In this document: one piece after another, positions 18,626 through 27,549 of the stretch
Position numbering within the stretch: position 1 is the first letter of the stretch
How the letters are laid out: every line of letters begins with the position of its first letter
NCBI RefSeq assembly: GCF_021991835.1
Contig: NZ_JAHDAU010000005.1
Span: 62,001 to 126,000, forward strand
DNA length: 64,000 nucleotides
Source: Polaribacter sargassicola
GTDB taxonomy: Bacteria > Bacteroidota > Bacteroidia > Flavobacteriales > Flavobacteriaceae
Direction of reading: 5' to 3'
Position numbers and translations under genes: made by a program
The notes under the pieces: generated by a model
Database searches by the model: none
Told to the model about the DNA's origin: nothing
What the model saw: only the letters and a program-made list of their open reading frames with translations

Positions 18626-20809
18626 ATGGATTTATATACTCCTCTAAAAAAATTCTTTGGTTTTAATAAGTTTAAAGGGTTGCAAGAGCAAGTAATTAAA
18701 AGTATTGTAGAGAATAATAATACTTTTGTAATAATGCCAACAGGTGGTGGTAAATCACTTTGTTATCAGTTGCCTGCCTTAATGGCAGAAGGAACTGCAA
18801 TAGTAGTTTCTCCATTAATTGCCTTGATGAAAAATCAAGTAGATGCTATTAGAGGTATTTCTGAAAATAATGGTGTAGCTCATGTTTTAAACTCATCATT
18901 AAATAAAACAGAAGTAGCTCAAGTTAAAGAAGATATTACTAACGGAATTACTAAATTATTATATGTTGCCCCAGAATCTTTGATTAAAGAAGAATATGTG
19001 GCTTTTTTAAGAACTCAAAAAATTTCTTTTGTAGCTATTGATGAAGCACATTGTATTTCTGAGTGGGGACATGATTTTAGACCAGAGTACAGAAATTTAA
19101 AGCACATTATTAAAGCTATAGATAATGTGCCTGTTATTTGTTTAACGGCTACAGCCACAGAAAAAGTACAAGAAGATATTTTAAAAACTTTAGGCATTAC
19201 AGATGCAAACAGATTTAAAGCTTCTTTTAATAGAGCTAACTTGTTTTATGAAGTTAGGCCAAAAACTAAAGAAGTAGAAAAAGATATTATTCGTTTTGTA
19301 AAACAAAGACCAGGTAAATCTGGTATTATTTATTGCTTAAGTAGAAAAAAGGTAGAAGAGATCGCACAAATTTTACAAGTAAACGGTATTAAAGCAGTTC
19401 CTTATCATGCTGGTTTAGATGCTAAAACACGTGTAAAACATCAAGATATGTTTTTGATGGAAGAATGTGATGTTGTTGTTGCAACTATTGCTTTTGGTAT
19501 GGGAATAGACAAACCAGATGTGCGTTTTGTAATTCATCATGATATTCCAAAAAGTCTAGAAAGTTATTATCAAGAAACAGGTAGGGCAGGTAGAGATGAT
19601 GGAGAAGGATATTGTTTAGCTTTTTATGCATATAAAGACATAGAAAAGTTAGAAAAATTTATGGCAAGTAAGCCTATTGCAGAACAAGAAATTGGCCATG
19701 CATTACTACAAGAAGTTGTTGGTTATGCAGAAACATCTATGAACAGGCGTAAATATTTATTACATTATTTTGGAGAAGAGTTTGATGAAGTGAATGGGGA
19801 AGGAGCTGATATGGATGACAATTCTAGAAACCCAAAGAAAAAGCATGAAGCTAAAGAAGATGTAGTAACTTTATTAAAAGTAATAAAAGAATCTTTACAA
19901 AAATATAAAGCCAAAGAGATTGTTAATACTTTAATTGGTAAAGAAAATGCACTTTTAACATCGCATAAAACTCATTTACAACCATTTTTTGGCAGTGGAA
20001 AAGATAAACCTTCACTTTATTGGATGGCTTTGATAAGACAGGTTTTGGTAATTAATTTGATTAAAAAAGAGATAGAACAATACGGAGTTATAAAATTAAC
20101 AGAAGAAGGAGAAGAATTTATTAAAAAACCAACTTCTTTTATGATGACGGAAGATCATACGTATGATGAAGAGCATGATAACGCAATAATTACGAATTCT
20201 AAATCTTCTGGTAACTCTACAGATGAAAAGCTAATAAAGTTATTAAAAGATTTACGTAAAAAAGTTGCTACAAAACAAGGCGTTCCTCCATTTGCAGTTT
20301 TTCAAGATCCATCTTTAGATGATATGGCTTTAAAATACCCAATTACTTTAGCAGAATTATCTACAGTACATGGTGTTGGAGAAGGTAAAGCAAGAAAATT
20401 TGGTAAAGAATTTGTAAAGTTAATTGCTACTTATGTAGAAGAAAACGATATTTTAAGACCAGATGATTTAATAGTAAAAAGTACAGGTACAAATTCTGGA
20501 TTAAAACTTTTTATTATTCAAAATACAGATAAGAAGTTGCCTTTAGAAGACATTGCAAAGTCAAAAGGACTTGAAATGAGTGAGTTAATAAAAGCAATGG
20601 AAGGAATTATTTTCTCTGGTACTAAGTTAAATATTGATTATTCTTTAGATGATTTATTAGATGAAGATCAGCAAGAAGAAATTCATGATTATTTTATGGA
20701 AGCAGATACAGATAATATACAAGAAGCTTTAAACGAGTTTGATGGTGATTATGATGAAGAAGAATTACGTTTAATGCGTATTAAATTTATAAACGAAGTA
20801 GCTAATTAA
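18626..20809 (+). CDS. recQ: ATP-dependent DNA helicase RecQ
   Basis: This 727-residue 3'-5' helicase acts in recombination and replication fork repair. Walker A (MPTGGGKS) is at residues 38-45, the DEAH box at 139-142 with the RecQ aromatic loop CISEWGHDFRPEYR, and motif VI YQETGRAGRD follows. A RecQ-CT winged-helix region and an HRDC domain (about residues 520-600) complete it. The zinc-binding cysteines usual in RecQ are not evident: the corresponding stretch reads RRKYLLHYFGEEF, followed by an acidic insert. The acidic C-terminal tail is typical of the Bacteroidota form. Confidence 0.95.
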   Translation: MDLYTPLKKFFGFNKFKGLQEQVIKSIVENNNTFVIMPTGGGKSLCYQLPALMAEGTAIVVSPLIALMKNQVDAIRGISENNGVAHVLNSSLNKTEVAQVKEDITNGITKLLYVAPESLIKEEYVAFLRTQKISFVAIDEAHCISEWGHDFRPEYRNLKHIIKAIDNVPVICLTATATEKVQEDILKTLGITDANRFKASFNRANLFYEVRPKTKEVEKDIIRFVKQRPGKSGIIYCLSRKKVEEIAQILQVNGIKAVPYHAGLDAKTRVKHQDMFLMEECDVVVATIAFGMGIDKPDVRFVIHHDIPKSLESYYQETGRAGRDDGEGYCLAFYAYKDIEKLEKFMASKPIAEQEIGHALLQEVVGYAETSMNRRKYLLHYFGEEFDEVNGEGADMDDNSRNPKKKHEAKEDVVTLLKVIKESLQKYKAKEIVNTLIGKENALLTSHKTHLQPFFGSGKDKPSLYWMALIRQVLVINLIKKEIEQYGVIKLTEEGEEFIKKPTSFMMTEDHTYDEEHDNAIITNSKSSGNSTDEKLIKLLKDLRKKVATKQGVPPFAVFQDPSLDDMALKYPITLAELSTVHGVGEGKARKFGKEFVKLIATYVEENDILRPDDLIVKSTGTNSGLKLFIIQNTDKKLPLEDIAKSKGLEMSELIKAMEGIIFSGTKLNIDYSLDDLLDEDQQEEIHDYFMEADTDNIQEALNEFDGDYDEEELRLMRIKFINEVAN

Positions 20810-20885: not shown

Positions 20886-21527
20886 TTAAAATTTATATTT
20901 CATATCAATAGCATATTTTAACAATTCGCTACCAGAAGATAAATTAAGTTTTTTTATCATATTTTTTCTATGAGTATCTACAGTTGTCTTGGCAATAAAT
21001 AATTTTTCAGCAATTTCTTTAGAAGTTTTTCCGTTTGCAATTAAATTTAAAATTTCTTTTTCTCTATTTGATAAGGTTATTTTTTCTGATGTTCCGATGG
21101 TAACATTATCATCTATATAATTATTCATAAAATTAAAAGCAACATTAGGATCAAAAAAAGTTTCTCCTTTGGCAACAGAAATAATTGCTTTTGATAACAT
21201 TTTAATCCCCGAGTTTTTTAAAATATAACCGGTAGCTCCTGCATCTATCATTTGTTTTATGGCATCTGGCTGATCAAACATTGTCATCGCTAAAACATTT
21301 GTGTTTGGGTTATTTTGTTTGATTATTTTGGTAGCTTCAATACCATCCATTTTAGGCATCCTAATATCTGTAATAACTAATTTAGGTTGTTTTAATTTAA
21401 CAGCATTTACAAGGGCTTCTCCGTCATTTACAGAATCAATAATATTGATATTATCATCAAGTTCAAAAAAAGATTTTACTCCGTCTATTAATATTTGATG
21501 ATCTTCTGCTATTATAATTGTAATCAT
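20886..21527 (-). CDS. NarL/FixJ-family response regulator
   Basis: The 213-residue regulator has a receiver domain with acidic pocket E8-D9, phospho-acceptor D54 (ITDIRMPKMDG) and a conserved threonine/lysine switch, then a LuxR-type helix-turn-helix at about 145-205 (LSNREKEILNLIANGKTSKEIA, split here as one domain). It lies 16 nt downstream of the first TPR histidine kinase and is its evident partner; the second kinase upstream shares the same catalytic half and probably signals to it too. Two 22-bp palindromes upstream of the small genes match NarL-type 7-2-7 sites, suggesting autoregulation. Confidence 0.93.
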   Translation of the reverse strand: MITIIIAEDHQILIDGVKSFFELDDNINIIDSVNDGEALVNAVKLKQPKLVITDIRMPKMDGIEATKIIKQNNPNTNVLAMTMFDQPDAIKQMIDAGATGYILKNSGIKMLSKAIISVAKGETFFDPNVAFNFMNNYIDDNVTIGTSEKITLSNREKEILNLIANGKTSKEIAEKLFIAKTTVDTHRKNMIKKLNLSSGSELLKYAIDMKYKF

Positions 21528-21543
21528 ATTTTATTTTTTTAAG

Positions 21544-23235
21544 TTAATCAACCGGAATATCAATAATGACAGAGCTTCCTTTTCCTATAGTAGAATCAAT
21601 TTCAAATGTTCCGTTAAGATGTTTAATTCTTGTTTTTATAGAGCTAATTCCCATTCCATTTTTTAAATTTACGTTATTAATATCAAACCCTTTTCCATTA
21701 TCTTCTATAATAATATTTAGATTCTGGTCGTAAAAAGATAAATTTATGGTTGCATTTTTAGCATCTGCATGTTTTATGATATTGGTTGTTAATTCTTGAA
21801 CAATTCTAAAAATACCAATTTCTAAACTATTTTCTAAGCGTTTATTTAACCCAAAATCTACAACATCAATTTTTATTTTATCTGCAGATGATATTTTTTC
21901 AGCCATCATTTTTATTGCAACTAGCAGTCCTTGGTTTGCAATAACACCTGCATTTTTAGCATGTGCAATACTGCGTACTTTTAAATAAGCTTCATCAATT
22001 AAACCTTCTGTTTTGTTAAATAAAGTTTCTTGATCTATTTTTTTCTTTGTGTGATTTATTTTTAAATTATCAAAATGTAATTTTAAAGTAGCTAAGATAG
22101 AACCCAAATTGTCATGTAAATCTTCTGCAATTTGTTTACGTTCTTTCTCTTGACCATTAATTATTGCATTAATGGTTGTTAACTCTTGTTCTTTTAAAAG
22201 AGTTAGGTTTTTTTGCTTTTCTAGTTCTTTTTGTTGTTCTGCAACTTTTCTTTTCTTATTAGAGTTTTTTATCAATAATGTGCCTATTACACTAATTAAA
22301 ATAAGTGATAATAATGTAGCTATTAAAAAGTTTTGGCTTTTTTTCTTATCAATTTCTAATTGAAGGTTTAATTTATCCTTTTTTTCAGTTTCGTATTTTA
22401 TATTTAAATCTGAAATTGCAATATTTTGTGCAGTAATATTTAAACTATCTTTTATAATATCATATTTTTCGTAATACTCGTAGGCTTTTTTGTAATTTCC
22501 AGTTTCTTTATAACAATCAGCAAATTTTTTATATAGTATTTTGTTATATTTTTGTTGGTAATCTGCAATTTTTATTTTTTCTGCTTTTTCTAGCAATAAT
22601 ATTGCCTGTTTAAATTTTTTTTGACTTTGAAAAAAATTACAATAGTTTATGTAGGTATCTAATAATTGTTTTTTATCGAGCTTATCAATTGATTTGAGGG
22701 TTTTATCAAAATAATATTTAGCTGAATCTTTTTGATTTAAGGAATAAAGATGTGCTAAGTTAGAGTAAATAGTCGATCTATATTTTTGTAGTTCTTTTTT
22801 TTGTGTAATTAAAATAGATTTATCGTAAAATTTCCTGCTTTTATATGGATGTTTAGAATCCCAAAAATAAGCAGCATAAGCATTATTAGATATCAATAGC
22901 ATTAAAGAATCTCTTTTTTCTTTTGCGTATTCTGTATAATTATCTAAAAATAGTATAGGGTTTTCATTTAAGTTGTTCTGAGATTGGATTAAATAAAATA
23001 AGTTGATATTACATTTTGCTAAACTATCTTTATTGTTAAGACTTAGATATAAATTTCTAGATGTTATATAATTTTCATAGGCATCAAACGTTCTATTATT
23101 CACTTCAAATTTTTGGGCTTTTTTAAAATAGAAATAGGCTGAGTCTAATCTTGATTTTTGTGCATAAGAAAAACTACAAATTAAATAAAAGATAATTTGT
23201 AGTTTTAATATTTTATGTTCTTTGTAAAGCTTCAA
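21544..23235 (-). CDS. TPR-sensor histidine kinase, copy 1
   Basis: The 563-residue kinase starts at a TTG directly after the stop of the preceding small gene. A signal peptide ends near SFSYAQ, TPR-like helices fill about residues 27-265 in the periplasm, a membrane helix spans about 303-323, a coiled coil follows, then HisKA_3 with H374 in AEDLHDNLGS, and a HATPase with DNGKGFD and GMGISSIKTR. From about residue 264 to the end it is nearly identical to the kinase at 23866-25557, with about 15 base differences in roughly 900, whereas the TPR part is only about half identical. The response regulator follows after 16 nt. Confidence 0.9.
   Translation of the reverse strand: MKLYKEHKILKLQIIFYLICSFSYAQKSRLDSAYFYFKKAQKFEVNNRTFDAYENYITSRNLYLSLNNKDSLAKCNINLFYLIQSQNNLNENPILFLDNYTEYAKEKRDSLMLLISNNAYAAYFWDSKHPYKSRKFYDKSILITQKKELQKYRSTIYSNLAHLYSLNQKDSAKYYFDKTLKSIDKLDKKQLLDTYINYCNFFQSQKKFKQAILLLEKAEKIKIADYQQKYNKILYKKFADCYKETGNYKKAYEYYEKYDIIKDSLNITAQNIAISDLNIKYETEKKDKLNLQLEIDKKKSQNFLIATLLSLILISVIGTLLIKNSNKKRKVAEQQKELEKQKNLTLLKEQELTTINAIINGQEKERKQIAEDLHDNLGSILATLKLHFDNLKINHTKKKIDQETLFNKTEGLIDEAYLKVRSIAHAKNAGVIANQGLLVAIKMMAEKISSADKIKIDVVDFGLNKRLENSLEIGIFRIVQELTTNIIKHADAKNATINLSFYDQNLNIIIEDNGKGFDINNVNLKNGMGISSIKTRIKHLNGTFEIDSTIGKGSSVIIDIPVD
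21549..22455 (-). repeat. Kinase-half repeat, copy 1 (mate at 23871-24777)
   Basis: This segment, encoding membrane helix, HisKA_3 and HATPase domains, matches 23871-24777 with about 15 substitutions that I can count and no indel. Similarity falls abruptly at the boundary with the TPR-coding part. Confidence 0.9.
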
Positions 23236-23706
23236 TTATGGGTTTCTGGATATTACACCACCACCAGCTTCTGTAGGCATAACACCTTTAAATGAAGGAG
23301 AAAAGTGACCTTCTTTTAAAGAGGGATTATAATTTTTCTTATCATTAAATATTGTAATATTAATGTTATCAGTTATACTAATATCAAATTGATTATCAGT
23401 GTTATGAATAATATCATCAAAATGAAAACTAGTTTCCGCAATGTAATTTTTGTTTTGTGGTTTTGCTTGGTCTTCAGTATTATCAGATATAAATATTGTA
23501 ACAGATGGTTTACCGTCTTTGATTGTGTTTTCAATTGAAAATATATGATAATTTGTATTTGGTAAAGTAGTTCTTATTGTAAAAACACCTAGTTTTGAGT
23601 GAAAAAAACTATGTTTATGGTTTTCATCTGCGATGTCTAAATTTTCTTTTTTTTCTAGAATAGCCAATTCACTTTTAGAAGGTTTTCTATAACTAAATTT
23701 TTTCAT
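23236..23706 (-). CDS. Unknown 156-aa protein coupled to TPR kinase 1
   Basis: I do not recognise this protein. It has no signal peptide or membrane helix, is hydrophilic with several beta-like stretches (FTIRTTL, PSVTIFISD, FDISITDNINITIF) and ends in TEAGGGVISRNP. Its stop abuts the kinase start with no gap, which strongly suggests translational coupling and a shared job. The gene at 25559-26038 occupies the same place before kinase 2, has similar length, weak similarity through the body (both have a TIF-x-ND stretch) and a matching tail GNGGGVIIEGP. A ligand, inhibitor or secreted signal of the kinase is possible, but nothing in the sequence proves it. Confidence 0.75.
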   Translation of the reverse strand: MKKFSYRKPSKSELAILEKKENLDIADENHKHSFFHSKLGVFTIRTTLPNTNYHIFSIENTIKDGKPSVTIFISDNTEDQAKPQNKNYIAETSFHFDDIIHNTDNQFDISITDNINITIFNDKKNYNPSLKEGHFSPSFKGVMPTEAGGGVISRNP

Positions 23707-23731
23707 TGTTTTTTATTTATACTCAAAGAAC

Positions 23732-23739
23732 CAAAATTA
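23732..23739 (-). promoter_or_regulatory. Candidate -7 element for small gene/kinase copy 1
   Basis: Read leftward the bases give TAATTTTG, matching TAnnTTTG, 25 nt before the ATG at 23706. The NarL-type palindrome ends 12 nt upstream, about where an activator would contact polymerase. The equivalent position in the second copy is AAATTTTA, so the element is not conserved and may not be the true one. Confidence 0.4.
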
Positions 23740-23751
23740 ATACGAATTTTC

Positions 23752-23773
23752 ATATACCTATATATAGGTATAT
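23752..23773. promoter_or_regulatory. Perfect 22-bp palindrome, NarL-type 7-2-7 operator candidate
   Basis: The core TACCTAT-AT-ATAGGTA is two inverted heptamers separated by 2 bp; the heptamer fits the NarL consensus TACYYMT, and the flanking bases extend the symmetry to 22 bp. It lies upstream of the first small gene in the duplicated cassette. Because the linked regulator is a NarL-family protein, it is the likely binding site, which is an inference. Confidence 0.65.
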
Positions 23774-23800
23774 TGATAGCTCTAAAAATAAATAAAAAAA

Positions 23801-23863
23801 TTATAAAGTAAAGATAGTAAGTAAAATACCTAAAAGAATGGCAATAAATTTTTGTAAATTAAA
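23801..23863 (-). pseudogene. 63-nt relic of the 3' end of the zip gene
   Basis: These 63 bases are identical to 26150-26212, the stop codon and last 20 codons of the ZIP transporter gene. They stand here without the rest of the gene, immediately after the stop of kinase 2, and mark the junction of a tandem duplication about 2.35 kb long. The bases before it (palindrome and A-rich stretch) are also shared with the region behind the intact zip gene. Confidence 0.9.
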
Positions 23864-23865
23864 AG

Positions 23866-25557
23866 TTATTTAATGGGAATATCAATAATAACAGAGCTTC
23901 CTTTCCCTATAGTAGAATCAATTTCAAATGTTCCGTTAAGATGTTCAATTCTTGTTTTTATAGAGCTAATTCCCATTCCATTTTTTAAATTTACGTTATT
24001 AATATCAAACCCTTTTCCATTATCTTCTATAATAATATTTAGATTCTGGTCGTAAAAAGATAAATTTATGGTTGCATTTTTAGCATCTGCATGTTTTATG
24101 ATATTGGTTGTTAATTCTTGAACAATTCTAAAAACACCAATTTCTAAACTATTTTCTAAGCGTTTATTTAACCCAAAATCTACAACATCAATTTTTATTT
24201 TATCTGCAGATGATATTTTTTCAGCCATCATTTTTATTGCAACTAGCAGTCCTTGGTTTGCAATAACACCAGCATTTTTAGCATGTGCAATACTGCGTAC
24301 TTTTAAATAAGCTTCATTAATTAAACCTTCTGTTTTGTTAAATAAAATTTCTTGATCTATTTTTTTCTTTGTGTGATTTATTTTTAAATTATCAAAATGT
24401 AATTTTAAGGTAGCTAAGATAGAACCCAAATTGTCATGTAAATCTTCTGCAATTTGTTTACGTTCTTTTTCTTGACCATTAATTATTGCATTAATGGTTG
24501 TTAATTCTTGTTCTTTTAAAAGTGTTAGATTTTTTTGCTTTTCTAGTTCTTTTTGTTGTTCTGCAACTTTTCTTTTCTTGTTAGAGTTTTTTATAAATAA
24601 TGTACCTATTACACTAATTAAAATAAGTGTTAATAATGTAGCTATTAAAAAGTTTTGGCTTTTTTCTTTATCAATTTCTAATTGAAGGTTTAATTTATCC
24701 TTTTTTTCAGTTTCGTATTTTATATTTAAATCTGAAATTGCAATATTTTGTGCAGTAATATTTATACTATCTTTTACCAAGTTATATTTTTCAAAATATT
24801 GATAAGCTTCTTTATAGTTTTTTGAAAGTTTGTAATAATTAGCTAAATTTCTATATATAATTTTATTAAATTTTAAGTGAAAAGCATCAATTTCTATTTT
24901 TTCAGCTAGTTTTAATTGATTTATAGCTTCTATATATTTTTCTTGATTTTTTAGATGTATTGCATAGTTGATATAGGTACCTAAAAGTTGAGTTTTATTT
25001 AATTGATCAGAATTTTTAAGTGTTTTTTCGTAGTAATAATTAGCAGAATCTGGTTTAGATTTAGTGTATAAGTATGCTAAATTTGCATAAATAGTAACTT
25101 TATACTTTTTTAATTCGCTTTTATTAGTTAATCTTAGAGATTCTTTATAGTGATTTCTAGACCTCTCAATAGAATCTGAATTCCAAAAATAACTAGCATA
25201 ACTATTACTTGCTTTTAAAAGCATTAAAGTATCATTTTTTTTTAAACCATAGTTGTAGTAATCATCTAAATAGAATTTAGCATCTTTATCTAAATTTTTT
25301 TGAGAATCTAATAAATTAAACAATTCTAAATTACATTTAGAAATACTGTCATATTCAAATAGTGTTTCATAGATTCTTTTTGCCTTTAAATAGTCTCTAT
25401 AAGCTTCACTAAGTTTATTATTTTTTTCAAATTTTTGTGCGTTTGCAAAATAAAAATAAGCAGAGTCTAATTTTGAGGTCTGAGAATATGAAATGCAAGA
25501 AATTAAGAAGATTAAAATTTTTATTTTTTGTGATTTTAAAAAAATATATTTTAACAT
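23866..25557 (-). CDS. TPR-sensor histidine kinase, copy 2
   Basis: The start is the ATG at 25557, one base past the stop of the upstream small gene; a TTG at 25572 inside that gene is less likely. The 563-residue protein has a signal peptide ending SCISYSQ, a periplasmic TPR-like region to about residue 265, a membrane helix near 303-323, HisKA_3 with H374 and a HATPase domain. It aligns without gaps to the kinase at 21544-23235. The catalytic half is nearly identical, the sensor half about 50% identical. It has no regulator of its own and probably feeds the NarL-type regulator at 20886-21527. Confidence 0.9.
   Translation of the reverse strand: MLKYIFLKSQKIKILIFLISCISYSQTSKLDSAYFYFANAQKFEKNNKLSEAYRDYLKAKRIYETLFEYDSISKCNLELFNLLDSQKNLDKDAKFYLDDYYNYGLKKNDTLMLLKASNSYASYFWNSDSIERSRNHYKESLRLTNKSELKKYKVTIYANLAYLYTKSKPDSANYYYEKTLKNSDQLNKTQLLGTYINYAIHLKNQEKYIEAINQLKLAEKIEIDAFHLKFNKIIYRNLANYYKLSKNYKEAYQYFEKYNLVKDSINITAQNIAISDLNIKYETEKKDKLNLQLEIDKEKSQNFLIATLLTLILISVIGTLFIKNSNKKRKVAEQQKELEKQKNLTLLKEQELTTINAIINGQEKERKQIAEDLHDNLGSILATLKLHFDNLKINHTKKKIDQEILFNKTEGLINEAYLKVRSIAHAKNAGVIANQGLLVAIKMMAEKISSADKIKIDVVDFGLNKRLENSLEIGVFRIVQELTTNIIKHADAKNATINLSFYDQNLNIIIEDNGKGFDINNVNLKNGMGISSIKTRIEHLNGTFEIDSTIGKGSSVIIDIPIK
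23871..24777 (-). repeat. Kinase-half repeat, copy 2 (mate at 21549-22455)
   Basis: This is the second copy of the nearly identical kinase-coding block, offset by 2,322 nt from the first. Its sharp edge at the TPR boundary contrasts with the diverged sensor and small-protein genes. Confidence 0.9.
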
Positions 25558-25558
25558 T

Positions 25559-26038
25559 CTATGGTCCTTCAATAATTACTCCACCACCATTTCCTTCTTT
25601 GGGTCTTAACATAGATTTTTCTGTATTAGTAGAACATAAAGAATCTTCTGGGAATGACTTACTATTGTCATTGTATATAAAAATAGTTAGTTTTTCTAAA
25701 AGCGTAATATCTATTTCACCTATTACATTTTTAATTTCTGAAGCAGCTATGTCTAAAGAAATAATTCTCTTTTTGGGTTTTTTTCTTTCCTCATTATCAT
25801 CAATTGAAATATGAATCACTAAAATTTTACCAATTAATAAGTCATAAAAATAATATCCATTTATTTCTGTCTTATCCTTTTCTGCTACAGGAAAAATGAT
25901 ATGAATAGATTTATCTTTAATGTTAATATAACTATCATATTGTATGACATCTAGATTCTTATGATATTGATCTTTTTCTCTTATGTTAATATCTCGTTCA
26001 TCTTTTGGTTTAAAAGGGATAAAATCTATTTCTTTCAT
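25559..26038 (-). CDS. Unknown 159-aa protein coupled to TPR kinase 2
   Basis: This is the positional counterpart of the 156-residue protein at 23236-23706. I do not recognise it. There is no signal peptide; the charged N-terminus (KPKDERDINIREKDQY) is followed by beta-like stretches (SIHIIFPVA, ILVIHISIDDN, KLTIFIYND), and the C-terminus reads PKEGNGGGVIIEGP. Outside the GGGVI-x3-P tail, similarity to the other copy is faint, although both genes sit one or no bases before a near-identical kinase. Candidate roles are ligand or accessory sensor of the TPR kinase; the tail could be a functional peptide, which is speculation. Confidence 0.75.
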   Translation of the reverse strand: MKEIDFIPFKPKDERDINIREKDQYHKNLDVIQYDSYINIKDKSIHIIFPVAEKDKTEINGYYFYDLLIGKILVIHISIDDNEERKKPKKRIISLDIAASEIKNVIGEIDITLLEKLTIFIYNDNSKSFPEDSLCSTNTEKSMLRPKEGNGGGVIIEGP

Positions 26039-26099
26039 TTAGGGTTGATTTAAAGGTTATTTTACTATTTTCAAATATCTAAAATTTGTACTAAGCATC

Positions 26100-26121
26100 A
26101 TATACCTATAAATAGGGATAT
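26100..26121. promoter_or_regulatory. Imperfect 22-bp palindrome, NarL-type 7-2-7 operator candidate
   Basis: This is the second-copy counterpart of the palindrome at 23752-23773. One heptamer is intact (TACCTAT) and the other has one change (ATAGGGA instead of ATAGGTA) with the 2-bp spacing kept. It lies about 62 nt before the start of the 159-residue gene and 29 nt from the zip stop codon. Confidence 0.55.
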
Positions 26122-26149
26122 TAATTGCATTAAAAATAAATAAAAAAAA

Positions 26150-26827
26150 TTATAAAGTAAAGATAGTAAGTAAAATACCTAAAAGAATGGCAATAAATTT
26201 TTGTAAATTAAATTTATGATTTTCAGATCCTTCAAATAAAATGATGGTAGAAATATGTAAGAAAACACCAATTATTAAAGCTGTTATTTCGGTTTCGTAA
26301 GTAGAAAAAAAGATAATTTTATCGCCTAATAAAAAACCTAAAGGACTCATTAAAGCAAAAGCAGATAAAGAAAGGAAAGTAGTTTTTTTAGAATACTCGG
26401 TATTAATTAAAAATGTAGTTAAAACAACAGCAATAGGTATTTTATGTACAATAATTGCCCAAAGTAAATTGTTGTCTGAATGATGTATTGGCAAACCTTC
26501 AGAAAATGCATGCAAACATAAACTAACAAACAATAAAGTAGGAAATTTTTTTCCGTTAGAATGTATGTGAATGTGACCATGTTCTGCGCCTTTAGAAAAA
26601 GATTCTAAAACAGACTGAATTAAAAGCCCAACTAAAATAAATATACCAATTTTTTTATACTCATTAGTTTCTGTGTAAACTTCTGGCAATAAATGTAAAA
26701 TAGTTACAGACAATAAATAAGCACCACTAAAAGCCAATAATAAGCGGATTATTTTATTGGTAGGTTTTAAAATAAAAACTAAGATTGCACCAACAAAAAC
26801 AGCAGCAATTAAAAGAAAGTAACTCAT
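26150..26827 (-). CDS. ZIP-family metal transporter
   Basis: The 225-residue inner membrane protein has about seven to eight helices and the ZIP metal-site motifs HLLPEVY near residue 46, then HAFSEGLPIHHSD near residue 107 and HKIPIAV near residue 130. ZIP proteins import zinc, iron or manganese; the substrate is not decidable here. A histidine-rich loop (EHGHIHIH) near residue 84 may bind metal. Its start overlaps the upstream methyltransferase end by 4 nt. The last 63 nt are duplicated at 23801-23863. Confidence 0.88.
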   Translation of the reverse strand: MSYFLLIAAVFVGAILVFILKPTNKIIRLLLAFSGAYLLSVTILHLLPEVYTETNEYKKIGIFILVGLLIQSVLESFSKGAEHGHIHIHSNGKKFPTLLFVSLCLHAFSEGLPIHHSDNNLLWAIIVHKIPIAVVLTTFLINTEYSKKTTFLSLSAFALMSPLGFLLGDKIIFFSTYETEITALIIGVFLHISTIILFEGSENHKFNLQKFIAILLGILLTIFTL

Positions 26828-27549
26828 TTTGCAACTAAAATTAATCTATTAGAAGTTTCTATATTAAAGTCAGTTAGGTTGTAATCGCCAAAAATATTGG
26901 TAATTGTAAAACCTACTTTATCAAAATAAGTTTTCATTTTATCAATATCTAAATATTTTACTCTTTCTGTATAAGAATGTTTTTCTCCATCAGCAAAAAA
27001 CGAGATGTTTTTAAGGATAAAACCATTTGTAATTTCTCTTGTAATATAAAAAGTAATATCGTCTACAATTTTTGTTTCTTTAGCAACTAAATTTGCTTTT
27101 ACATAAGCAGCATTTAAAAAATCGAACACAAAAACACCCTCTTTTTTCAATCCATTTTTTATATTCTGTAAGATTAAAATATCTTCTTTATCTTCATCAA
27201 AATAACCAAAGCTTGTAAACAAATTAAAAACAGCATTGTATTGATTATTAAAAGGTTTACGCATGTCGTGCACTCTAAATTTTAGAGAGTCATTTTCAAA
27301 TTTTTGGGCATTTTTTATACTATTTTCAGCTAAATCTCCACCAGTAACAGTATAACCTAAAGAATTTAAAAAAACAGAATGACGGCCCTTTCCACAAGGT
27401 AAATCTAAAATATGAGTAGATTTAGGTAAATTTAAAAAAGCAGTTATATTTTTCATAAATAACTGTGCTTCTTCATCATTTCTGTCTTTGTATAAAATAT
27501 GATAATAAGGTGTGTTAAACCAATCTGTAAACCAATCTTTTTTCTTCAT
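26824..27549 (-). CDS. Class I SAM-dependent methyltransferase
   Basis: The 241-residue cytosolic enzyme has the SAM-binding motif I HILDLPCGKGRHSVFL near residue 45 and a second conserved acidic strand, VTGGDLAENSI. The motif IV region reads FNLFTSFGYF. Substrate cannot be told; the family includes methyltransferases acting on small molecules, proteins or RNA. The start ATG at 27549 is supported by 110 nt of intergenic DNA before the divergent THUMP methyltransferase gene. The downstream zip gene overlaps it by ATGA, suggesting a shared transcript. Confidence 0.85.
   Translation of the reverse strand: MKKKDWFTDWFNTPYYHILYKDRNDEEAQLFMKNITAFLNLPKSTHILDLPCGKGRHSVFLNSLGYTVTGGDLAENSIKNAQKFENDSLKFRVHDMRKPFNNQYNAVFNLFTSFGYFDEDKEDILILQNIKNGLKKEGVFVFDFLNAAYVKANLVAKETKIVDDITFYITREITNGFILKNISFFADGEKHSYTERVKYLDIDKMKTYFDKVGFTITNIFGDYNLTDFNIETSNRLILVAK

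Follow-up and report, generated by a model that had tools for sequence, protein, structure and literature searches.

The window analysed here is a stretch of 64,000 nt in the 3.7-Mb draft genome of Polaribacter sargassicola. The subject is a signalling operon on its minus strand, in which a small variable protein (the partner) precedes a sensor histidine kinase with tetratricopeptide repeats (TPR). Read from a ZIP metal transporter gene to a recQ-like helicase gene, the order is partner 1, TPR kinase 1, partner 2, TPR kinase 2 and one NarL-type regulator. The ZIP gene (26150..26827, minus strand; Pfam Zip, 4.2e-18) is a conserved flank and the anchor of the locus. Partner 1 (25559..26038, minus strand) has 159 aa, belongs to class A (see below) and ends in the tail NGGGVIIEGP; neither a Pfam match nor a signal peptide was seen. 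Kinase 1 lies at 23866..25572 (minus strand). Its start in the list of open reading frames (ORFs) is a TTG within the partner gene, and an ATG at about 25557, one base past the partner stop, looks likelier. Partner 2 (23236..23706, minus strand; 156 aa, class A, tail AGGGVISRNP) gave a Pfam Peptidase_M9 match below the cut-off (E 0.0089). Kinase 2 (21544..23235) and the NarL/LuxR-type response regulator (20886..21527) follow, both on the minus strand, and the latter is present as a single copy behind both cassettes. Each kinase matched HATPase_c (3.1e-12), HisKA_3 and TPR_12, and the regulator matched Response_reg (5.2e-26) and GerE (5.1e-20). The HisKA_3 and HATPase_c matches and the receiver and GerE matches were all above the Pfam cut-offs, which identifies a two-component system. 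Two cassettes before one regulator had been described in a first-pass annotation of this DNA, and the ORFs bear this out. The window cassettes contain partner and kinase ORFs only, with no third gene.

The two cassettes are alike at one end only. The 3' ends of the kinases were 97% identical over the 300-nt reference copy, with a unit spacing of 2322 nt. At the protein level, the identity was 97% for the kinase domains, 52% for the sensors (the TPR halves) and 25% for the partners (over the shorter partner). Along the kinase genes, DNA identity per 60-nt bin was 55–71% in 13 bins, 90% in the next and 95–100% thereafter. The annotation had named near-identical kinase halves, sensor halves about 50% identical and barely similar partners, and all three were confirmed. 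Between the cassettes lies a 63-nt copy of the ZIP 3' end (23801..23863, minus strand; 100% identical to 26150–26212). As this tail was copied unchanged, the repeat unit spans from the inside of ZIP to the kinase end. In the five other tandem loci described below, a decayed copy was found in L058 (105 nt, 79%), a weak one in L040 and none above shuffles in L026, L060 and L068. We infer from this layout that recombination of a resident and an incoming allele via shared ends may have produced the tandem, since this is the arrangement it would leave.

The operon belongs to a group of related bacteria. Regulator relatives came from Polaribacter or Tenacibaculum in 42 of 45 named loci, and the other three carry a family or class name only. 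These two genera are counted together as "genus" in what follows. Of the 166 genus genomes, 155 gave a ZIP match. The locus set consisted of 140 fetched ZIP stretches plus the window (141 loci), the remainder being mostly incomplete or at a contig edge. A kinase and a regulator were present in 58 loci; 42 were empty (ZIP followed by recQ within 1.4 kb), three ended at the contig and 38 were otherwise arranged or broken. The layout in the 58 loci was one or two partner–TPR kinase cassettes followed by a NarL-type regulator, giving 64 cassettes. Six loci were tandem (the window, L026, L040, L058, L060 and L068), and the first kinase of L026 is truncated. The partner was located ≤60 nt from its own kinase in 60 of 63 cassettes. 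A regulator ortholog was found in 63 of the 166 genomes, with a single match each (E ≤ 1e-60). Eleven other genus genomes matched a window partner (146 searched), and all have the partner beside ZIP. Broken kinases or regulator remnants occur at the locus in L047/L259, L261, L026, L142 and L143 and are signs of repeated loss.

The partners are diverse. All-against-all clustering (E 1e-3) gave two clusters of 23 each, five of two to three members and seven singletons, three of which (L026.1, L142.1, L143.1) are wrong or missing calls. All 21 class A partners used share the tail G-[GS](0-1)-G-[VI]-I-x(2-3)-P (e.g. EAGGGVIVEGP) on a poorly conserved body (mean column identity 26%). A cysteine within the last 20 residues was present in all 23 class B partners and in none of the 21 of class A, and YGTF-like motifs are common to most class B partners. 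The remaining classes have GGSTDPI-like, PEYPP-like or G[ND][VI]I-like tails. Called partners are 141–363 aa long, except for one miscalled fragment of 123 aa. None of the 13 partners scanned reached a Pfam cut-off, the NCBIfam search of partners gave nothing close to a cut-off, and the best E values were only 0.67 and 0.45 in the PDB sequence search. AlphaFold models were used for one class A partner (partner 2 of the window) and one class B partner, with mean predicted local distance difference test scores of 77.6 and 73.0 and predicted template modelling scores of 0.76 and 0.75. Both consist mostly of strands, with low-confidence stretches before the terminal tail strand. Foldseek returned best E values of 0.30 and 0.51. 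The best Z in VIA-align was 4.9 for class A (NigD-like 4pqx, root-mean-square deviation 3.8, 93 aligned) and 2.6 for class B, both in the range of chance arrangements. These absent matches to families and folds are no evidence of a new fold.

A protease-like gene precedes the partner in 11 of the 64 cassettes and in none of the 21 of class A; the latter count depends on L140, which clusters with class A at E 1e-3 but was assigned to the GN[VI]I tail group. Among seven protease-like proteins scanned, two subtilases, one trypsin and one DUF31 peptidase passed the Pfam cut-offs, while a papain-like protein (C39_2, 23.0 bits against 24) and two trypsin-like proteins fell below them. The remaining four (L040, L086, L136, L140) were called by resemblance only.

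Kinase length follows the partner class (561–575 aa in class A, 613–647 aa in class B). By hydropathy alone, a membrane segment precedes the kinase domain in 63 of 64 kinases and an N-terminal hydrophobic segment was seen in 56, with the TPR part located between them.

Identity, Mantel and class tests were performed on 60 cassettes. Four were omitted: L026.1 and L142.1 (truncated kinase, with a kinase fragment called as the partner), L118.1 (tail-less partner) and L143.1 (no called partner). The class test further omits the singletons L131.1, L134.1, L148.1 and L161.1 (56 cassettes). The median identity between loci was 0.18 for the partner and 0.26 for the sensor, against 0.75 for the kinase domain, 0.83 for the regulator and 0.72 for ZIP. 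The similarity of kinases correlated with that of ZIP (r 0.69, 0 of 2000 permutations as high), and the correlation with ZIP was weak for the sensor (r 0.11, 69 of 2000) and the partner (r 0.07, 45 of 2000). The kinase follows the species; the partner and the sensor barely do. After removing the contributions of kinase and ZIP, partner and sensor remained correlated (r 0.40, 0 of 2000), also in class B alone (r 0.354, 0 of 2000). With leave-one-out nearest neighbours, the partner class was predicted correctly in 52 of 56 cassettes from the sensor, compared with 22 from the kinase, 21.5 from the regulator and 24 from ZIP; the commonest class accounts for 23 of 56. The observed value was reached by none of 300 label shuffles for the sensor, by 26 for the kinase and by 15 for ZIP. 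A lack of covariation between partner and sensor, which the annotation had listed as a finding that would count against it, was thus not seen over the whole set.

The boundary is sharpest between near sisters. In the three closest pairs (ZIP 98.7, 97.8 and 94.8% identical in protein), kinase domains were 92–98% and regulators 95–99% identical, compared with 24–25% for sensors and 2–19% for partners. In each pair, blastn (E 1e-5) found exactly two blocks and no alignable DNA between them. The first block comprised ZIP plus 46, 247 or 55 nt; the second began 210, 91 or 183 nt before the kinase domain and ran to the end of the regulator. The segment from the promoter region to the end of the sensor was exchanged as a unit in these three pairs. 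Uniform divergence of the locus, another outcome that had been named as contrary, was rejected by the identity medians, the DNA bins and the sister-pair alignments.

The system extends beyond the genus. Among 397 genomes from 237 genera of the family, the class A profile matched 6 (5 genera) and the class B profile 34 (28 genera). A related kinase adjoins the partner in all four readable class A hits outside the genus (three genera) and in each of the 19 class B loci inspected. Of the other class A hits, L264/L291 is cut off at the contig end and L268 (E 9.1e-4, three stops) was taken as chance; 14 more class B hits were left unopened. Partner genes without a kinase, the third outcome that the annotation had named as contrary, were rejected as well, as a kinase was the neighbour in every readable locus outside the window's species, and the further copies of the small protein beside TPR kinases that the annotation had called for were found in the same loci; a lone partner gene under the profile threshold would escape detection. 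Twenty loci outside the genus were fetched, of which one ends at a contig edge and 19 were read (3 class A, 16 class B). The order partner, TPR kinase, regulator was present in all 19. The identity to the best genus match was 53–63% for the kinase domain and 50–61% for the regulator. The nearest genus relative predicted the partner class in 19 of 19 loci by sensor and in 12 of 19 by kinase; because class B makes up 16 of these loci, the informative part of the sensor prediction is the three of three in class A. As to surroundings, 11 of the 19 loci adjoin the same aminotransferase-like gene, 128-aa gene or both, and L300 has methyltransferase- and ZIP-like neighbours as in the window (all names by resemblance). 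In one genome outside the genus, a second related kinase was found downstream of the regulator (L305, 6623–8494).

A 16-bp palindrome, TACCTAnnnnTAGGTA, precedes 50 of the 64 cassettes exactly and 60 with at most one mismatch, while control stretches drawn elsewhere in the same loci were equal in 2.6% of draws on average. In the window, a copy with one mismatch precedes cassette 1 (26103..26118) and the perfect palindrome TACCTATATATAGGTA precedes cassette 2 (23755..23770); both are candidate regulator sites. The palindrome was found in four of 83 loci without a full operon: L047 and L064 (remnants), L138 (a run of N) and L154 (a short contig). Genomes with the operon had 3.21 perfect forward sites on average (own cassette sites included; 58 genomes) against 0.10 in the reversed control, and a perfect forward site was absent in 5 of the 58. 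Genomes without it had 0.73 against 0.05 (83 genomes). Outside the genus, TMCCY-N6-RGGKA was present within 250 nt in 16 of 19 operons (0.49 expected), a count that is no independent test because the form was picked after viewing the sequences. The heptamer of NarL and NarP is TACYYMT according to the available part of PMC4886647; TACCTAT and TACCCAT in the palindromes fit it, and no link to nitrate was seen. NarL-like palindromes also lie between a SpoU-like methyltransferase and an amidohydrolase-like gene and before yebC-, asnS-, gyrB- and apbE-like genes (L162–L164, L177–L213; names by resemblance). They recur across several genomes, whether the operon regulator is present or absent. The idea of a private site of the regulator held only in part, as the same sites recur where the regulator is absent. 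Similar sites in regulator-less genomes suggest that other regulators share the palindrome, and the extra copies at housekeeping-like genes are the reason why it is claimed only as a candidate operator.

From these comparisons of sequence, we consider it probable that partner and sensor form cognate modules which are exchanged while the kinase stays constant, and that the periplasmic TPR domain has the partner as its protein ligand or co-sensor. The TPR domain would bind the small, mostly beta-stranded partner from its own operon, probably through the conserved C-terminal tail. As partner variation follows the periplasmic half of the kinase rather than the cytoplasmic one, direct contact is the simplest explanation. 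Binding would set the activity of the constant HisKA_3 kinase, which would act on the constant NarL-type regulator. As kinase and regulator are constant, the output would be a single one whatever the key. The regulator may bind the palindrome before the cassette and perhaps other sites. New specificities would enter by homologous recombination, through the ZIP 3' end or promoter at one end of the cassette and through the kinase domain at the other. The incoming cassette would replace the resident one or, as in the window, leave two in tandem on one regulator.

Several observations weigh against this mechanism. A signal-peptide-like start was found in only 15 of 63 called partners (some like secreted proteins or lipoproteins); one of these is the miscalled kinase fragment L026.1, and an over-long ORF may be the cause of the hydrophobic start of L135. 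The other 48 have no such start and so no visible route to the periplasmic TPR domain. Export, release by lysis or an unrecognised route would be needed, and this is the main gap. In class A alone, partner and sensor were not significantly correlated (r 0.135; 244 of 2000 permutations reached this value). The sensors of L073 and L093 are 83% identical, but their class A partners share only 28%; either the partner alone was replaced or recognition goes via the shared tail. Kinship between species was controlled through ZIP and kinase similarity rather than with a tree. Moreover, perfect palindromes occur at conserved spots near spoU-, yebC-, gyrB-, asnS- and apbE-like genes in genomes without this regulator. 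The claim that partner and sensor had diverged together on a constant half thus holds for their joint variation; what was mainly seen is the exchange of whole modules among unrelated families, and class A shows no significant effect of its own.

Signalling between cells by the partner is possible. In a stronger form of the module-swapping mechanism, which overlaps with it, cells would release or display the partner, or a peptide cleaved from its tail, and neighbouring cells of the same type would read it with their TPR sensor. Such polymorphic recognition would resemble the pherotypes of ComQXPA and Agr, with autoinduction via the palindrome. It would agree with module swapping at one fixed site while kinase and NarL-type regulator stay constant, with tandem pairs of different alleles (six loci), with presence and absence among species (42 of 141 sites empty), with protease-like genes beside 11 of 64 partners and with a private conserved tail in each class. 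We nevertheless find it doubtful, as the window cassettes have no exporter gene, 48 of 63 partners lack a signal-peptide-like start, and tails conserved within a class would force the specificity into the body; moreover, with one genome per species in the sample, polymorphism within a species is not visible. Co-component sensing in cis seems unlikely on balance. Here, partner and TPR domain in the same envelope would form a composite receptor for an outside ligand (e.g. envelope damage, a host or prey molecule, a bacteriocin or a phage), and the variety of cassettes would reflect that of the ligands. The available part of PMC9214523 describes VtrA/VtrC and ToxR/ToxS as fast-evolving two-gene cassettes with a periplasmic partner. 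The 15 partners that start like secreted or lipoproteins point the same way, as does the weak similarity in fold between the class A model and a NigD-like lipoprotein (Z 4.9), but most called partners have no such start and the fold scores are within the chance range. The protease-like genes and the conserved C-terminal tails would also stay unexplained.

A conflict or self/non-self system, in which the cassette would be a guard sensing attack, with proteases as triggers and under diversifying selection, is quite improbable. The combination of hypervariable parts with trypsin-, subtilase- and papain-like genes is reminiscent of the conflict systems in the available part of PMC7159879, the L048 subtilase matches the PADLOC subtilase model (6.7e-23), and empty sites and broken kinases show turnover. 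However, PADLOC gave no match up to E 0.1 for 8 of 10 proteins (five partners, the window kinase, one small membrane protein and the papain-like protein) and only two weak ones for a trypsin-like protein (0.021, 0.085), and the output of the operon is a transcription regulator. Selection was assessed in ten close pairs, in which nonsynonymous divergence (dN) was lower than synonymous divergence (dS) for partner, sensor and kinase throughout. Positive selection was therefore rejected. The values are rough because dS exceeds 1 in many pairs. For L060/L068, dN and dS were 0.15 and 0.61 for the partner and 0.02 and 0.61 for the kinase. The highest dN was that of the partner in eight pairs and that of the sensor in two (L042/L044, L037/L058).

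With respect to known systems, the operon shares with ComQXPA the adjoining small variable protein, kinase and NarL-type regulator, and a variable input half on a constant kinase half. ComX and the N-terminal half of ComP are markedly variable, the cytoplasmic half of ComP is conserved, and the regulator has receiver and GerE domains (PMC4008528, available part). The census in that part reports no ComQXPA outside the phylum Firmicutes. No ComQ-like isoprenyl transferase gene was found among the ORFs and Pfam matches of the window's two cassettes; the other cassettes were listed and not all scanned. Moreover, the sensor is a TPR domain, whereas ComP has many membrane helices, and the partner is a protein of ~140–360 aa from several unrelated families. 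Agr consists of a membrane peptidase, AgrB, and a short AgrD peptide. The window cassettes have no third gene, and called partners are 141–363 aa apart from the one miscalled fragment. The ComQXP/Agr-like layout proposed at first is hence retained for the gene adjacency and the variable and constant halves of ComQXPA, and not for ComQ in the window cassettes or the features of Agr. RRNPP receptors (Rap/NprR-type) are cytoplasmic TPR proteins for an imported peptide, whereas the TPR part here has, by hydropathy only, a hydrophobic N-terminal segment on one flank (in 56 of 64 kinases) and a membrane segment on the other (in 63). Because a defining feature of each was not found, the operon was not filed under ComQXPA, Agr or RRNPP.

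FimS, a kinase of the Bacteroidota member Porphyromonas gingivalis, has a periplasmic domain of TPR motifs with a membrane segment on either side; what it senses is not known, and a polypeptide has been suggested (PMC11053733, available part). Against the FimS profile, one window kinase scored weakly (E 6.7e-5; 21.3 bits, where the cut-off is 600). A variable operon partner or an exchangeable sensor half is not mentioned for FimS–FimR in the available text of that paper. VtrA/VtrC and ToxR/ToxS are similar in that a fast-evolving small partner pairs with a membrane protein through its periplasmic part (PMC9214523, available part). They differ in being membrane transcription factors rather than kinase–regulator pairs and in their lipocalin-like partners, and a constant/variable swap at one locus is not mentioned in that text. 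No published description of this operon system was found in the literature searched, with subscription papers and preprints outside its coverage. The operon appears to be a new variant of polymorphic partner–sensor two-component signalling that reaches well beyond this genome. With rather less than even confidence, we suggest that it may be the first two-component system of Bacteroidota for polymorphic, pherotype-like self-recognition, in which keys from unrelated families with their own tails, some with their own protease, fit TPR locks and one kinase–regulator chassis is reloaded by recombination across the family.

The signal of periplasmic TPR kinases of Bacteroidota is an open question, with FimS as one case (PMC11053733, available part). 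That cassettes are exchanged in nature suggests that the TPR domain reads the operon partner, and dozens of natural matched and mismatched partner–sensor pairs are available on one chassis. If the partner acts between cells, this common marine group would have a recognition system, possibly one for kin. For sensor work in laboratory strains, the sharply bounded modules are ready-made parts.

The flanks of the window operon recur elsewhere. The methyltransferase-like gene (26824..27549, minus strand), an ORF named by resemblance only, is a conserved flank with the same position in related loci, and the recQ-like helicase gene (18626..20809, plus strand) is the far flank in many loci. A search of plasmids with a window kinase gave no match at 1e-30. 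A related membrane-type protein of ~200 aa lies between kinase and regulator in L118, L130, L131, L134 and L250; the L130 copy had no Pfam match above the cut-off. Upstream of the partner, L027, L040, L086 and L303 encode a membrane-type protein of 103–112 aa with an ASG..AVFVLVYLFNP-like end, which accompanies some cassettes, including outside the genus.

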